From Synechococcus sp. CBW1107 (GTDB lineage Bacteria; Cyanobacteriota; Cyanobacteriia; PCC-6307; Cyanobiaceae): a stretch of DNA of 64,000 nucleotides. The DNA lies in assembly GCF_015841355.1 (NCBI RefSeq), contig NZ_CP064908.1:434001-498000 (forward strand), read 5' to 3'. Made by a program: the position numbers and the translations under genes. Of this stretch, positions 50,849 through 57,787 are shown piece by piece; position 1 is the stretch's first letter; every line of letters begins with the position of its first letter. Below the pieces are notes generated by a model. That model had not been told where the DNA came from, made no database searches, and saw only the letters and a list, made by a program, of their open reading frames with translations.

Positions 50849-51070
50849 TCAGGTCCGCTTGATCAGCCGCAACACCAGCACCGCCAGCCCGGCGCCGATC
50901 GCCGCCCTGATGACGCTGTCCAGGAGCGGAGCGCCAAGCGAGGGGCCCAGGCCCGCCAGCACCAGGCCAGCGATGAGGGCACCGAGGATCCCGGCCACCA
51001 GATGCATGACCAGCCCACCCGCCAGCCATCCGGCGACCACACCCACGAGCAGGACCAGCAGAACGTTCAT
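50849..51070 (-). CDS. Small GlsB/YeaQ/YmgE-family membrane protein
   Basis: A 73-residue, Gly-rich, very hydrophobic protein (LLVGVVAGWLAGGLVMHL, then GILGALIAGLVLAGLG and a last helix ending RLIKRT). This layout fits the transglycosylase-associated family, often stress-induced with no known biochemistry. ATG 51070 is chosen. It is divergent from the methyltransferase gene, 300 bases away. Confidence 0.7.
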   Translation of the reverse strand: MNVLLVLLVGVVAGWLAGGLVMHLVAGILGALIAGLVLAGLGPSLGAPLLDSVIRAAIGAGLAVLVLRLIKRT

Positions 51071-51218
51071 GGGCTGACGAAAGCAGTGAATGAAACACAC
51101 TCCCCCATCAACGCGCCCGGCTCGGAAACGGCAACCGGAAGCTGCTTGGGGACTTCAGCGGTCAGATCACATGATGATCCCTGATCGGCCGGCCATCGTG
51201 GGTTGATTCGACATCAGG

Positions 51219-51249
51219 CCGAAGCGATGCAATACACCGAAGCGATGCA
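51219..51249 (+). repeat. Two direct copies of CCGAAGCGATGCA before the methyltransferase gene
   Basis: An identical 13-mer occurs at 51219-51231 and 51237-51249, an 18-base period with a 5-base gap, about 125-150 bases before the methyltransferase start in a 300-base region with no gene. This could be a tandem regulator site or a short duplication. Confidence 0.5.
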
Positions 51250-51371
51250 GCACAAGGTGAAGACCCATGGCGGTTGTTCCGGGGCACAGGGTCTTGACGC
51301 CCGACCCGGCCGATCGTGACCTCCGTGGAACCTGGAGGCTTCGCAGCCACCAAGACATTCTGGAGACCGCC

Positions 51372-52457
51372 ATGCCAACCACCACAGGGATGAAGGGAGG
51401 GGGCTACTACGACGCCAACTCCCAGGCCCAACGCGCAGCGATGGAGCCCTTTCTGCCCTGGCTGGAGGCTTCGATCGAGCATGTACCAGTTCCATCCCAG
51501 GAGCAGGGTTGTTACCGCTTCCTTGACATCGGCAGCTCCGAAGGAGCCAACGCCGTGTATGCCATCAAACGCTTGATCAGGGCTCTGCGGAGGGTGTCTT
51601 CCCTGCCCATTCAGGTGGGATTCGATGATCTCCCCAGCAATGATTTCAACAGGCTGTTTCTTAATCTCTTCCCCCAGGGTCAGCTTGATCTCGCGGCTGA
51701 AGAGATCTATGCCTGTGCCGTGGCCGGTACGGCCTTTGGCCGTCTGGTGCCGGCCGGCTCGCTTCAGCTCGCCACCACGTTCAATGCCATCGGATTTCTG
51801 AACGAGAAGCCAAAGGCCGAACTTCCCAGGTTCATCCTGCCGATGGCACCAGGACCCCATGCTCCTCGGCCTGGTGTGCACGTGACGGATCAGGACCTGA
51901 TTCCCTTCCGCACCCAGGCCGCCTCAGACCTCAAGGCCTTCTACGCCGCACGTGCGGCCGAATTGGTGAGCGGTGGGCAGTTGCTTGTGCAGGTCTTTGG
52001 TCGCCGTGGGGAACTTTCCACCAGCCATGGGATCTATGACGTGCTCAGTGATGCCCTGCTCGATGCCGTTGAGCAGGGACGACTCCCGCAGGTGGTCTAC
52101 GAGCAGCTCCTCTTTCCGATCTACTTTCGCAGCCTTGAGGAGCTGTTGGCGCCTGTGCAGCCTGGGGCTGAGCATGGGGCCTGCTTCGAGGTGCTTCAAG
52201 CTGAGGTCCGGGAGGTTGAGGTTCCGTTCAACCAGCAACGGCAACTCGACGGCGACGTGAACGCGTGGGCCAGGCAATACACCGGCTTCATGCGGGCCTT
52301 CACTGAGGCCATCCTGGCCGCTGCTCTTCCCGAGACTCTGCCCCAGGCGGACATCCTCGAGTGGATCTACGAACGGATCCAGCAGCGCCTGATCGCAACT
52401 CCCGAGCGCTATCCCTTTCACTACATCTCCATCGGTGCCCTGTTGAAGCGACTCTGA
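51372..52457 (+). CDS. SAM-dependent carboxyl methyltransferase, SABATH family
   Basis: A 361-residue protein with the SABATH (Methyltransf_7) layout: an N-terminal GGGYYDANSQAQ resembling the plant start motif, the SAM-binding FLDIGSSEGANAV, the hallmark DDLPSNDFNRLF (plant enzymes have NDLPGNDFN), then AGTAFGRLVPAGSLQLATT and RAAELVSGGQLLVQVFGR. SABATH enzymes methylate carboxyl groups of small acids such as salicylate, benzoate or indole-acetate. The family is best known from plants; bacterial members are little studied. The substrate here is unknown. It stands alone, after a 300-base region with a direct repeat. Confidence 0.9.
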   Translation: MPTTTGMKGGGYYDANSQAQRAAMEPFLPWLEASIEHVPVPSQEQGCYRFLDIGSSEGANAVYAIKRLIRALRRVSSLPIQVGFDDLPSNDFNRLFLNLFPQGQLDLAAEEIYACAVAGTAFGRLVPAGSLQLATTFNAIGFLNEKPKAELPRFILPMAPGPHAPRPGVHVTDQDLIPFRTQAASDLKAFYAARAAELVSGGQLLVQVFGRRGELSTSHGIYDVLSDALLDAVEQGRLPQVVYEQLLFPIYFRSLEELLAPVQPGAEHGACFEVLQAEVREVEVPFNQQRQLDGDVNAWARQYTGFMRAFTEAILAAALPETLPQADILEWIYERIQQRLIATPERYPFHYISIGALLKRL

Positions 52458-52472
52458 GCGCGCGCTGGATCT

Positions 52473-52847
52473 TCAAGGACCATTTGACTGCATCACTTCG
52501 AGATTACGCTCACAGGTGGCTTTGTCGACGTAGATGAGAACTTCACTGTGCTCGGATCTCCTGCAGGGAAATGCCGGATCCTTGAGACCGAAGGTGCCGT
52601 TGGTCTGATGGGTACAGGTGCGAAACTGACGGATGTCGTCCGGCTGAAGTCGGGTGCAGGCGGCTGAGCTGGGCTGAAGCCAGTCGAACCCATAGGATCC
52701 GGCTGTGGGCCCCTTCACCCGAGACAGGCAGGGAGCAGCCATCACGGCCGTATCAACCATGGCCATGGCAAGGATGGCAGCACCAAGGGAGGCAACACCA
52801 AACGATTCAGCACCACCTCTGAATCGGACGTCTCGAGCCCTCATCAC
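52473..52847 (-). CDS. Small exported Cys-rich protein, unknown function
   Basis: A 124-residue protein with a signal-peptide-like N-terminus (FGVASLGAAILAMAMVDTAV, cleavage near AVMAAP) and five Cys in the mature part (one each in PCLSR, AACTR, RTCTH, FPCRR and TTCER-like contexts). It may be disulfide-rich and periplasmic. It converges on the methyltransferase gene 15 bases away. No family is recognised. The DNA here is visibly less GC-rich than the genome norm. Confidence 0.55.
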   Translation of the reverse strand: MMRARDVRFRGGAESFGVASLGAAILAMAMVDTAVMAAPCLSRVKGPTAGSYGFDWLQPSSAACTRLQPDDIRQFRTCTHQTNGTFGLKDPAFPCRRSEHSEVLIYVDKATCERNLEVMQSNGP

Positions 52848-52949
52848 GACCCCCGATCAGGTCTTCACATCGGCCTGAGCCTAGGAGCCATGGCCCGGCT
52901 GACTGTGGTGTGCTGGAGTATCGCCCACAGACCGACGGCCCGGCTCGGT

Positions 52950-53687
52950 TCAGGGGGCTTGGATGGTCCCCTTGATTTTGTTGCAGGATTGAAGGTAGGC
53001 GGTGTCGAAATCCGGCGCAGTCAAGCTGAAATCCGGATTCAGCTCATGGCCCTGGCGAAAGCTGGTACATCCCAGCTCGCGCTGCCCTTTGAGAAAGAGT
53101 GTCTCGCCGCGATTGAAGTAGTACAGAGCATCGTCGGGGTTCAGCTCAATTGCTTTGTCGTAATCAGCCAGAGCTCCCTTGTAATCCTTCAGGGAGTTCC
53201 GTGTCACCCCACGATTGTTGTAGGCCGTTGCATTCTTGGGATCAAGCGCGATGGCTTTGCCGTAGTCCTCCAGCACGCTGGGATAGTTCACAGGGGTGAC
53301 GGCCGCCTTCACGTCGGCAAGGCGAAGATAGGCTTCTGAATTGTCAGGCTCCAGCCGGATGGCTTGCTTGCAATCGGCCAGTGCTCCGCTCAACCGGGTC
53401 AGTTCAAGCTGGGCCTGGCAACGGTCGATCCAGGCGGTGGCCAGCTTCGGATTCCTCTCAATGGCCTGGCTGCAAGCCTCCACTGCACCCTGCCAATCCG
53501 AGACCTGGATCATGGCTCTGCATCGTGCCGCAGCATCGTCCATGGCCGCGGGGTTCCCCATGGCGAGGGCCGATCTGGATCCAAGGTCACTGGCGCGTGA
53601 GGCGGGTGGCGCCACTCCCCATGGCAGGAGCATGGAGAGCATGCCCGTGAGCACGGTGTGCAGGTGCCAGCGCATCCGAAGAGCCAT
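52950..53687 (-). CDS. Exported TPR-repeat protein
   Basis: A 245-residue protein with a signal peptide (residues about 1-32) and TPR units: AVEACSQAIERNPKLATAW, ALADCKQAIRLEPDNSEAYL, LEDYGKAIALDPKNATAYNN and ALADYDKAIELNPDDALYYF. TPR proteins hold partner proteins together. It probably works in the periplasm or lumen. No binding partner is suggested by neighbours (an exported Cys-rich protein downstream, an HLIP gene upstream). Confidence 0.82.
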   Translation of the reverse strand: MALRMRWHLHTVLTGMLSMLLPWGVAPPASRASDLGSRSALAMGNPAAMDDAAARCRAMIQVSDWQGAVEACSQAIERNPKLATAWIDRCQAQLELTRLSGALADCKQAIRLEPDNSEAYLRLADVKAAVTPVNYPSVLEDYGKAIALDPKNATAYNNRGVTRNSLKDYKGALADYDKAIELNPDDALYYFNRGETLFLKGQRELGCTSFRQGHELNPDFSLTAPDFDTAYLQSCNKIKGTIQAP

Positions 53688-55160: not shown

Positions 55161-55322
55161 GACCTTGATTCTGCTGCTAGCCCACCGAGCGGGCCGCCCA
55201 GCCCAGCATCAGCAGGGCGAGGGCCAGCGAGCCGCCACCGTGGCTCCTGGTAGCGCCACCGGCATGAAGGGGCTCACGACTGAGTGAGACTGCAGTGTTC
55301 GCTCGATCCACCGGGTTCGCCG

Positions 55323-56972
55323 ATGTCTCCAGCACCCTCCAGTGAGCTCGTCTTCACGCCTCCTGGAGACGGGTTCTGGGAGCTCGATCCCGTGCACTTC
55401 CCCCGCCCGGTGAGCCGCTACTGGCGGGAGATCCACCCGGCCGCGTTCCGACGCGGCACCGCCGACTTCGCTCGTGCCTACGGCCTGCTGTTCGAGGCCC
55501 TGGAGATGGCTTACATCCATGGCTTCGCCTACCGGCGGGTGACCCCCCTGGCCGACGCCGAGCTGCCGGAGCGCTTCCGGCGCGCCGAGGAGGTGTTCGC
55601 CCAGAAGTTCTGGCGGCAGCAGCTGCAGGAGTGGAACGACACCGTGAAGCCCGCGGCGATCGCGGCGCACCGGCAGATCCAGGCGGTGGAGCCGGATGCC
55701 CTCAGCGACGACGACCTGGCCGGTTACCTGCAGCGCTGCCGCGACCACCACGCCGCAATGCTGGCTCAGCACATGCGCTACACAGCGGCCGCCATCGTGT
55801 CCATCGGCGACTTCCTGGCCCACGCCGCAGCCTGGACCGGGCTGCCCGCGGCCGAGCTGCTGGGCCTGATGCGCGGCACCTCGCCGGTATCGGCCGGAGC
55901 GTCCCAGGAGCTGGCCGAGCTGATCGCCGCGCTGCAACAGGATCCTCCGGCCCGCGACATCCTCATGACCACGGACGATCCCGGCGCCGCCTTGTCGGCC
56001 CTGCGGACGCGCGCTGGACGCACGGGCCGGGCGATGGGCGCTTATCTCGATCTGGTGGGCTATCGCCTGCTCGATGGCTTCGACATCACCAACCCCTGTG
56101 CCCTGGAGTTGCCCGACGTGCTGCTGCGGGCCATCCGCGCCGCCCTGACGACCGACGCTGCCACGCCTGGCGGCAGCGATCGCAGCGCCGAAGTGCGTGC
56201 CTGGGTGCCTGAAGCCCAGCGAGACGCCTTCGATGAGCTGCTGGCCGAAGCCCGGCTCATGTACCCGATCCGTGATGAACGGGGCGTGTTCAGCGACATC
56301 TGGGCGTCGGGACTGATGCGCCGGGCCGCCCTGGCGGCCGGACGCCGCCTGGCGGAGCGGGGGCTGCTGCACGATCCGCTCCACATCGTCGATGCCGGCT
56401 TCACGGAGATGCTCGCCCTGCTGGGAGCCGCCACGCCCTCGGCTGATGGCGCTCCGTCGGCCGATGAGCTGGCGGAGCGCGCCGCCTACCGCGGAGCCCA
56501 CGATGCGCACGAGGCTCCCCCCAGCCTGGGACCCACTCCCCCGCCCCCGCCGGATCCCTCCAGCCTGCCGCCCGCCGCCGCGCGGATGATGCAGGCCAGC
56601 GGCCTGGCGCTGCAGGCCCTGTTCGGGAGTTCCGAGGCCAAACACGAGCAGCAGATGCTGCGGGGCCTGGCCGCCAGTCCCGGGGTCTACGAGGGCCCGG
56701 TCCGGCGGGTCTCGCACCCCTCGGAGTTCGATCGCATCCAGAAGGGCGACGTGCTCGTGACCCAATCCACCACGGAGGCTTTCAACATCCTGCTGCCCCT
56801 GCTCGGCGGGATCGTCACCGACAGGGGCGGCCTGCTGTCCCACTCGGCGATCGTGGCGCGGGAGTACGGAATCCCTGGTGTGGTGGGAACCCGCGAAGCC
56901 AGCCGGCGCCTCATCGACGGCCAGCGGGTCCGGGTCGACGGCACGGCCGGCGAGGTCACAGTGCTGCCGTGA
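55323..56972 (+). CDS. PEP-synthase/RPH-like protein: helical substrate-binding part plus phosphohistidine domain
   Basis: A 549-residue protein with no ATP-grasp domain. Residues about 1-430 are helical and resemble the central substrate-binding region of rifampin phosphotransferase-like proteins (for example FARAYGLLFEALEMAYIHGF). A Pro-rich linker follows. The C-terminal 90 residues form a swivelling phosphohistidine domain (TDRGGLLSHSAIVAREYGIP), with the phosphate-carrying His at residue 507. The partner ATP-grasp protein is the next gene, overlapping by 4 bases (GTGA). In known dikinases the order is ATP-grasp first and in one chain, so this is split and reversed. The small-molecule substrate is unknown. 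Confidence 0.83.
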   Translation: MSPAPSSELVFTPPGDGFWELDPVHFPRPVSRYWREIHPAAFRRGTADFARAYGLLFEALEMAYIHGFAYRRVTPLADAELPERFRRAEEVFAQKFWRQQLQEWNDTVKPAAIAAHRQIQAVEPDALSDDDLAGYLQRCRDHHAAMLAQHMRYTAAAIVSIGDFLAHAAAWTGLPAAELLGLMRGTSPVSAGASQELAELIAALQQDPPARDILMTTDDPGAALSALRTRAGRTGRAMGAYLDLVGYRLLDGFDITNPCALELPDVLLRAIRAALTTDAATPGGSDRSAEVRAWVPEAQRDAFDELLAEARLMYPIRDERGVFSDIWASGLMRRAALAAGRRLAERGLLHDPLHIVDAGFTEMLALLGAATPSADGAPSADELAERAAYRGAHDAHEAPPSLGPTPPPPPDPSSLPPAAARMMQASGLALQALFGSSEAKHEQQMLRGLAASPGVYEGPVRRVSHPSEFDRIQKGDVLVTQSTTEAFNILLPLLGGIVTDRGGLLSHSAIVAREYGIPGVVGTREASRRLIDGQRVRVDGTAGEVTVLP

Positions 56973-57787
56973 ACGGGGTCGTCGCGCTCGAGCAGGCCAG
57001 CGACCTGGCGGCCTTCGGCGCCAAGGCCGTGAGCCTGGGCCAGGCCCTGCGCGATGGCCTGCCGGTGCCGCCGGGATTCGCCCTCTCCGGAACGTTCGTG
57101 GAGGCGGTGGCCGCCGCCGATGACGCCGCCATCGCCGAGCTGGTGCGGGAGGTGGCACCGTTGGCCGGTCCGCTGGCGGTGCGCTCTTCCGCCATCGATG
57201 AGGACGGAGCCGCCGCCAGTTTTGCCGGTCAGCACCAGACCCTCCTCAATGTGCCCTCCGTGGGCGAGCTGGCGGAGGCCCTGCGCGAGATCTGGTGGTC
57301 GGCGAATTCCGACGCCGCCATCACCTACCGCAAGAAGGTGGGGCTGTTCTCCCGCCCGAGCGTGGGGGTGGTGGTGCAGAAGCTGCTGGCCCCCGACACG
57401 GCCGGCGTGCTGTTCACGCGCAATCCCATCAACGGCGCCGATGTACGGGTGATCGAGGCGAGCTGGGGTCTGGGGGAAGCGGTGGTGGCCGGCCTGGTGA
57501 TCCCCGACCACGTCTGCCTGAGCCGCCAGGGCCAGGTGCGCGAGCGCCAGGCGGGGTACAAGACGGTGGCGATCCGTCCCGTCGCCGGCGGCGGCACCGT
57601 GGAGGAGGAGCTTCCTGCCGAGCTGGTGGAGCGCTTCTGCCTCGACGAGCGTCAGCTGGAGGCCCTGAACCAGCTGGCCGGCCGCTGCGAGCAGGTGTTC
57701 GGGCCCGGACGCGATCTGGAGTGGGCTTTCGAGGGCGGCACGCTCCATCTGCTTCAGTGCCGGGCAATCACCACAGCCGGAGCCTGA
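56969..57787 (+). CDS. Stand-alone PEP/pyruvate-binding ATP-grasp domain (PPDK_N type)
   Basis: A 272-residue protein corresponding to the N-terminal ATP-binding domain of PEP synthase / rifampin phosphotransferase: GAKAVSLGQAL at the start, VRSSAIDEDG (Arg72), ASFAGQHQTLLNV, VLFTRNPINGADVRVIEASW, GLGEAVVAGLVIPD, and LEWAFEGGTLHLLQCRAITT at the end. It would transfer the beta-phosphate of ATP to the His of the preceding gene product. Start codon GTG 56969 overlaps that gene's stop. The cNMP-binding gene starts right after its stop. A whole domain is present, not a fragment. Confidence 0.88.
   Translation: MNGVVALEQASDLAAFGAKAVSLGQALRDGLPVPPGFALSGTFVEAVAAADDAAIAELVREVAPLAGPLAVRSSAIDEDGAAASFAGQHQTLLNVPSVGELAEALREIWWSANSDAAITYRKKVGLFSRPSVGVVVQKLLAPDTAGVLFTRNPINGADVRVIEASWGLGEAVVAGLVIPDHVCLSRQGQVRERQAGYKTVAIRPVAGGGTVEEELPAELVERFCLDERQLEALNQLAGRCEQVFGPGRDLEWAFEGGTLHLLQCRAITTAGA

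Follow-up and report, generated by a model that had tools for sequence, protein, structure and literature searches.

The window, the 64,000-nucleotide stretch of DNA analyzed here, carries on its forward strand an open reading frame (positions 51372 to 52457) that encodes a 361-residue member of the SABATH (Methyltransf_7) family of methyltransferases. Within this known family, the protein belongs to a bacterial clade with a changed acceptor site. We favor, with a probability of about 0.6, the reading that it is a single-gene, SAM-dependent carboxyl O-methyltransferase of this clade. To our knowledge, substrates have been established for few of the bacterial SABATH enzymes. The clade spans several phyla and shares a changed acceptor site, and its steady neighbors in planctomycetes provide a first functional lead.

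Family membership, gene, and surroundings

The window protein matched the Pfam profile PF03492 (Methyltransf_7) over residues 41 to 357 with 117.4 bits (E = 1e-33; cut-off, 29.8 bits), and this was the single match to the profile in the whole 3.2-Mb genome. A search of NCBIfam with the protein gave no match up to an E value of 1. All 11 distinct PDB sequences returned by phmmer up to an E value of 0.1 were SABATH proteins, the best being a mycobacterial fatty acid O-methyltransferase (FAMT; 1.9e-21), and a profile built from seven clade or near-clade sequences returned the same 11 of 11. An AlphaFold2 model made from nine sequences had a mean pLDDT of 85.7 and a pTM of 0.87, with pLDDT below 50 at residues 1 to 14 (K8 included) and 88 to 106. 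When this predicted model was superposed on PDB chains, the top 13 entries were all SABATH proteins (Z, 31.1 to 37.2), and the next entry scored 19.1. FAMT was again best (Z, 37.2; rmsd, 2.7 over 337 residues of the predicted model). The predicted model superposed on plant SAMT with a Z of 34.0 and an rmsd of 2.8 over 329 residues, and on plant SABATH structures overall with a Z of 31 to 34. Juvenile hormone acid methyltransferase and OxaG/GtmA-type enzymes came next in the superposition (Z, 16 to 19) and were not adopted. Family membership, proposed in the first-pass annotation from the letters alone, was thus borne out by a profile score above the cut-off and by the SABATH fold of the predicted model. 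That annotation had named a place outside Methyltransf_7 as evidence against its reading; the profile search puts the protein inside PF03492. Both motifs that it quoted are present in the protein, and its view that the substrate is open stands.

The reading frame lies where it had been placed, without an internal stop. The start at 51372 agrees with relatives that begin with MPTTTGMKGGGYYD or nearly so, and relatives give no support to a longer frame from 51267. A putative Shine-Dalgarno-like site, GGAG (51362 to 51365, forward strand), stands 6 nt before the ATG. In a scan of positions 51000 to 53000, no sigma-70-like promoter site was found (0.6 in shuffles), and two terminator-like sites were found versus 1.4 (standard deviation, 1.2) in shuffles.

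The gene had been described as lying in an AT-richer stretch, and this held. Its GC content is 0.607 and its GC3 0.71, below the mean GC3 of 0.80 (standard deviation, 0.066) of 40 window reading frames chosen by a simple rule; the difference is weak, as 5 of these 40 are lower. AT-richness does not single out the SABATH gene, because a TPR neighbor also has a lower GC3 and yet is present in eight of the nine genomes of the genus. Pfam matches identified TspO, GXWXG/DUF4334, ADH, and cupin genes among the neighbors in the window. A pathway composed of these neighbors was considered and rejected, since each of the five genus members that lack the SABATH gene still has TspO and a portion of the GXWXG gene flanking the site; the link of the other neighbors is one of position alone. 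The description of the gene as unlinked to pathway genes holds in the window, and gene-less members of the genus keep the left flank in five of five cases and the right flank in four of five. Elsewhere in the window, two adjacent reading frames at 55284 to 57787 (forward strand) resemble a split phosphotransferase: the first has a PEP-utilizer mobile domain, and the second, judged by eye, is a PEP/pyruvate-binding part. An Actinomycetota MAG has similar reading frames (66 to 70% identity) at a distance of about 5 kb from one of its SABATH genes.

Phylogeny and active site of the clade

In a maximum-likelihood tree of 38 proteins, the window protein and its WH 5701 counterpart fell inside a 17-member bacterial clade (100/99), which a Gemmataceae protein joined to make 18 (99/91). 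The three plant rows, of which one is partial, formed their own clade (100/100). The program warned of several long branches that come together in this tree, including those of the plant rows and of the Gemmataceae protein. FAMT paired with a Sinorhizobium plasmid protein (100/99), apart from the window clade. The first-pass annotation had called the protein plant-type and had proposed a phylogeny with plant and bacterial members. In that phylogeny the protein lies outside the plant clade and inside a bacterial one, and the nearest solved structure is mycobacterial, so the plant-type label was not borne out. The tree likewise gives no support to a recent transfer from a plant.

PMC13376665 reports that K10, Q25, and W151 of Clarkia SAMT fix the carboxylate, that K21, S33, D68, D108, L109, and F140 of IAMT are SAM-binding or catalytic residues, and that Trp151 is conserved in other SABATH members. 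We placed the IAMT residues at SAMT K10, S22, D57, D98, L99, and F130, a correspondence that beyond K21/Q36/W161 is our own placement. SAMT residues were mapped to the window protein by a profile alignment, and clade counts were taken from a 38-row alignment. Seven SAMT residues are kept: K10 (K8 in the window protein), S22 (S17), Q25 (Q20), D57 (D52), N65 (N60), D98 (D86), and L99 (L87). Four are changed: F130 to A121, Y147 to N138, M150 to G141, and W151 to F142. Five of the six SAM-site residues taken from IAMT are therefore present (K8, S17, D52, D86, and L87), the sixth being A121. Loss of SAM-binding residues had been named beforehand as evidence against the annotation; one such residue (Phe130) is replaced and five are kept. 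In the suggested comparison of the pocket with known enzymes, two of the three residues of the Lys10/Gln25/Trp151 carboxylate clamp are kept (K8 and Q20), and Trp151 is replaced by F142.

These residues lie in short segments that were located by alignment, all on the forward strand. The N-terminal segment from K8 to Q20 (KGGGYYDANSQAQ; 51393 to 51431) holds the residues that align with Lys10 and Gln25, whose roles in plant SAMT are those given in PMC13376665. It is followed by motif I (FLDIGSSEGANA; 51519 to 51554), with D52 and N60, and by DLPSNDFN (51627 to 51650), with D86 and L87. GTAFGRLVP (51726 to 51752) contains A121 in place of the SAM-site Phe130, and G141-F142 (51792 to 51797) stands at the position of M150-W151. 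A clade-conserved segment at about residues 152 to 170 (PRFILPMAPGPHAPRPGVH; 51825 to 51881) is longer than in FAMT and may act as a lid. The motif FGRLVPAGSLQ had been offered as diagnostic of the family. It is present, and it also carries the departure of the clade, which reads GTAFGRL where SAMT has GSFYGRL.

The changes are shared across the clade. All 17 members carry Ala121, Asn138, and Gly141, and 16 of 17 carry Phe142, the exception being the picocyanobacterium G127, which has Trp. In each of the 21 nonclade rows of the alignment, position 121 is Phe or Tyr and position 142 is Trp or Tyr. Gln25 is kept in 17 of 17 members, and Lys10 in 16 of 17 (Val in the Desulfobacteraceae protein). 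The clade is recognizable from its sequence by a start near MPTTTGMKGGGYYD, the G[TS]AF loop, and FNAIG. With Phe in place of Trp151 and Ala in place of the SAM-site Phe130, the enzyme could use a different acceptor atom. Its target might then be a nitrogen or some other noncarboxylate group, as it is for the xanthine methyltransferases of plants. The replacement of the clamp Trp in nearly the whole clade would suit such a reading, which we nevertheless consider quite unlikely, given the retention of Gln25 and Lys10. Moreover, the one N-methyltransferase compared, CkTcS, shows the reverse pattern, with Thr for Gln25 and Trp kept.

Seven further positions, F209, I221, Y222, Y251, M307, F310, and Y351, were assigned to the pocket as putative counterparts of SAMT pocket residues. 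Three of the seven equal SAMT (I221, Y251, and M307), and none of the six that could be aligned with FAMT equals FAMT; M307 is Leu in most clade members. The position of M307 comes from PMC10853004, in which Met150 and Met308 form the substrate clamp of SAMT.

Plant SABATH enzymes (SAMT, 1m6e; IAMT, 3b5i; loganic acid methyltransferase, 6c8r; and the xanthine N-methyltransferases) share with the window protein the fold, motif I, DLP.NDFN, the clamp Lys and Gln, and some pocket residues. They differ in overall identity (20 to 24%), and the window clade has replaced Phe130 by Ala, Met/His150 by Gly, and Trp151 by Phe, has a longer mid segment, and stands apart from the three plant rows tested. 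FAMT (5f2k, 5f2n, and 5f2o) shares the fold, the SAM motifs, and the clamp Gln. As the best match in both structure and sequence, it raises the prospect of a fatty acid or 3-hydroxy-fatty acid methyltransferase making membrane-derived methyl esters, and the opened pocket could accommodate a chain. We regard this as unlikely. Identity to FAMT is 25 to 26%, FAMT groups with the Sinorhizobium protein outside the clade, and it has both the SAM-site Phe and the clamp Trp. The pocket positions compared differ except for the clamp Gln, FAMT having W151, Q154, W155, M214, M227, N228, V257, A312, and A315 versus N138, G141, F142, F209, I221, Y222, Y251, M307, and F310 in the window protein.

Judged from the sequence, the likeliest activity would be O-methylation at the carboxyl group of a hydrophobic acid that an enlarged pocket accommodates. 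The acid would be held by K8 and Q20 beside the SAM sulfonium, and the methyl group would be transferred by proximity and desolvation, which a review of SABATH enzymes (PMC9822479) describes as the basis of catalysis in place of acid-base chemistry. This mode of action remains something that we infer, since the clamp Trp is replaced by F142. Gly at 150 and Phe for Trp151 would open the pocket, and the rest of its lining is aromatic (F209, Y222, Y251, F310, and Y351). For this reason our tentative candidate, at well below an even chance, is a hydrophobic or aromatic acid somewhat larger than salicylate, converted to a membrane-permeable methyl ester; the aromatic part of this guess uses pocket roles that, beyond K10, Q25, Met150, W151, and Met308, are putative. 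Against the carboxyl reading stands the finding that no pathway gene lies near the SABATH gene in the window cyanobacterium.

Distribution among phyla and planctomycete neighbors

Relatives at 54 to 61% identity were found in two Gimesia MAGs, a Desulfobacteraceae MAG, a Rubrivivax MAG, and G127, a picocyanobacterium of another genus. In the window's order, 12 of 399 genomes matched the window protein at an E value of 1e-10 or below; this lineage was present in four of the 399, namely, the window genome, G127, and, as broken copies, G007 and G005. The phylum of the Gimesia record gave 12 matching genomes of 392, comprising 11 copies at 56 to 59% identity and one relative at 29%. In the order of the Rubrivivax record, the query MAG was the only match among 349 genomes. 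A wider sample of the window's phylum gave 4 matches in 339 genomes, with this lineage in the window genome only. Most members of the clade thus come from planctomycetes, several phyla are represented in it, and transfer of the clade gene between phyla is likely. We name no donor and leave the direction unstated, because the tree does not resolve the branching order inside the 17-member clade.

No match to the window protein was found in 50,697 phage records. Viral contigs yielded five stretches that fit a pattern, none of them coding for a relative, in a search whose reach is limited to close relatives. Distant relatives, at 21 to 29% identity, were present in three plasmid records. On this phage, viral-contig, and plasmid evidence, an origin as a phage or plasmid gene was rejected. 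Among the matches listed from the open-licence literature, nothing concerned the 17-member clade; an earlier description in print is possible.

The planctomycete loci examined (n = 12) were those of the two Gimesia MAGs and ten regions from other genomes. In 11 of the 12, the SABATH gene is followed on its own strand, 3 to 31 nt past the stop, by the start of a match to MsrB (methionine sulfoxide reductase), and SelO (protein adenylyltransferase) lies beyond it on the opposite strand; the exception (L068) is without this linkage. In one of the Gimesia loci (L004), the neighboring proteins matched SelR at 3.9e-42 and SelO at 3.5e-132. MsrB and SelO were not seen beside the SABATH gene in the Desulfobacteraceae locus, in the G127 locus, or in the window, where neither of the two gives a match. 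The available sequence breaks off within 160 nt of the gene in the Rubrivivax locus and within 450 nt in the Gemmataceae locus, and these two stand outside this comparison. We treat the MsrB-SelO linkage, as read from gene order, as a functional lead and not as proof.

One reading of this linkage is oxidative-damage repair, in which the planctomycete enzyme would act together with MsrB and SelO, its substrate being an oxidized or damaged metabolite or amino acid. The regularity of the arrangement speaks for it, but we find it improbable. It was not seen at the marine picocyanobacterial and Desulfobacteraceae loci and at the twelfth planctomycete locus, and shared neighbors among related genomes need no common pathway. 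In the window genome, moreover, the two MsrB genes lie at 2.26 and 2.38 Mb, distant from the SABATH gene at 0.485 Mb. A broader proposal is comparably speculative. In it, the clade would be a distinct functional kind of bacterial SABATH enzyme with a rebuilt SAM/acceptor site (the changes at 130, 150, and 151 and the clade-specific mid segment). In planctomycetes it would work alongside MsrB and SelO, and its substrate would be damaged by oxidation or new in some other way; its gene would have been passed between phyla as a stand-alone unit and been kept or discarded by cyanobacteria according to habitat.

Fate within the genus and a second picocyanobacterial lineage

Among nine genomes of the window's genus, the gene was intact only in the window genome, broken in three, and not found in five. 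The WH 5701 copy (92% identity) has an in-frame stop at codon 333, which corresponds by sequence comparison to window positions 52368 to 52370 (forward strand) and could be an error of the draft. WH 5701 also has an extra stretch of about 1.2 kb upstream of the gene that, by eye, looks like an insertion-sequence gene. In Cyanobium sp. CZS48M (G007), the N-terminal part is gone and frameshifts are present, and G005 holds only a remnant. In four of the five gene-less genomes, the left flank ends at window positions 51072 to 51093 and the right flank resumes at 52993 to 53027, the SABATH gene being missing from the junction; for the fifth (G001), the search recovered the left flank alone. A small reading frame convergent with the SABATH gene (52473 to 52847, reverse strand; no Pfam match up to an E value of 0.1) is likewise absent at the four joined empty sites. 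The genus is a plain example of a metabolic gene with patchy retention and with more than one kind of breakage.

Comparison of the window gene with the WH 5701 copy gave a dN/dS of 0.123 (63.5 synonymous and 28.5 nonsynonymous differences over 360 codons, the stop left out), and eight flanking genes gave 0.08 to 0.37 for the same pair. The value was higher, 0.196, against the broken CZS48M copy (330 codons). The window branch carried 16.5 nonsynonymous to 32.5 synonymous changes and the WH 5701 branch 4 to 18. Of 112 columns that do not vary among 15 other clade members, 3 differ in the window protein; WH 5701 differs at the same 3 and has the stop. Judged from these substitution patterns, the gene has evidently been under purifying selection. 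The broken copies in related genomes raise the alternative that the window gene is itself nonfunctional and decaying. This is very unlikely, as its reading frame is intact, its start and Shine-Dalgarno-like site are in place, 109 of the 112 clade-invariant residues are kept, and dN/dS is low.

On the preferred reading, a functional carboxyl methyltransferase, the gene may have reached part of the genus by horizontal transfer, where it would give a conditional benefit and be repeatedly lost. In two flank trees, the rows with the shortest path to the window were those of the other carriers. The left-flank tree is weak, joining the carrier G007 with the noncarrier G008 (73/97), and neither flank tree settles the root. 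For the genus, a gain on an inner branch and a loss in the others both remain compatible with these trees.

SABATH genes as such are no rarity in picocyanobacteria: the Pfam model found them in 61 of 389 genomes of the window's order (7 of 43 genera); what is rare is the window lineage. A second lineage, carried by picocyanobacteria of several genera, was compared at its loci in 33 of the 61 genomes, with a second-lineage query, and in all 33 the SABATH gene is followed on the same strand by an ELFV-family dehydrogenase gene and a DAO-family FAD gene. The two lineages share the Pfam family PF03492 and the bacterial family of their hosts. The second differs in identity (about 21 to 24% where measured), in these ELFV/DAO neighbors, and in its residues: in the nine rows aligned, Ala replaces the clamp Gln and Thr stands at the position of SAMT N65.

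In one longer region (L079, 2476 to 7365, reverse strand), the SABATH gene, ELFV dehydrogenase, and DAO-family oxidase are followed by a BCCT transporter. The NCBIfam model nearest to the dehydrogenase was that of the tryptophan dehydrogenase ScyB (1.2e-27; 97 bits, below the cut-off of 600), and that nearest to the oxidase was N-methyl-L-tryptophan oxidase (4.8e-54; 184 bits, below the cut-off of 257). By its gene content, the row looks like an uncharacterized amino acid/betaine, perhaps indolic, pathway. Among the literature matches listed for this gene row, the only one was a paper on Vibrionaceae solutes.

Three other SABATH loci were noted. On Rhizobium plasmid pCB3171_3 (L112, 2253 to 7357), the SABATH protein is sister to the second picocyanobacterial lineage (100/100). 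Its gene is preceded by a radical-SAM-like gene and a transporter-like reading frame (the transporter judged by eye) and followed by a D-amino-acid-dehydrogenase-like FAD gene that is not close to the cyanobacterial DAO-family gene. A 9-kb contig of the Rubrivivax MAG (L010, 1343 to 8960) carries two SABATH genes that belong to different lineages; between them lie genes for a PLP decarboxylase and a PALP enzyme and the N terminus of a nucleoside transporter. Finally, a long open frame in the cyanobacterium G048 (L080, 5879 to 8029) contains a PF03492 match of 173.7 bits, above the 116.3 bits that the window protein scored in the same comparison.
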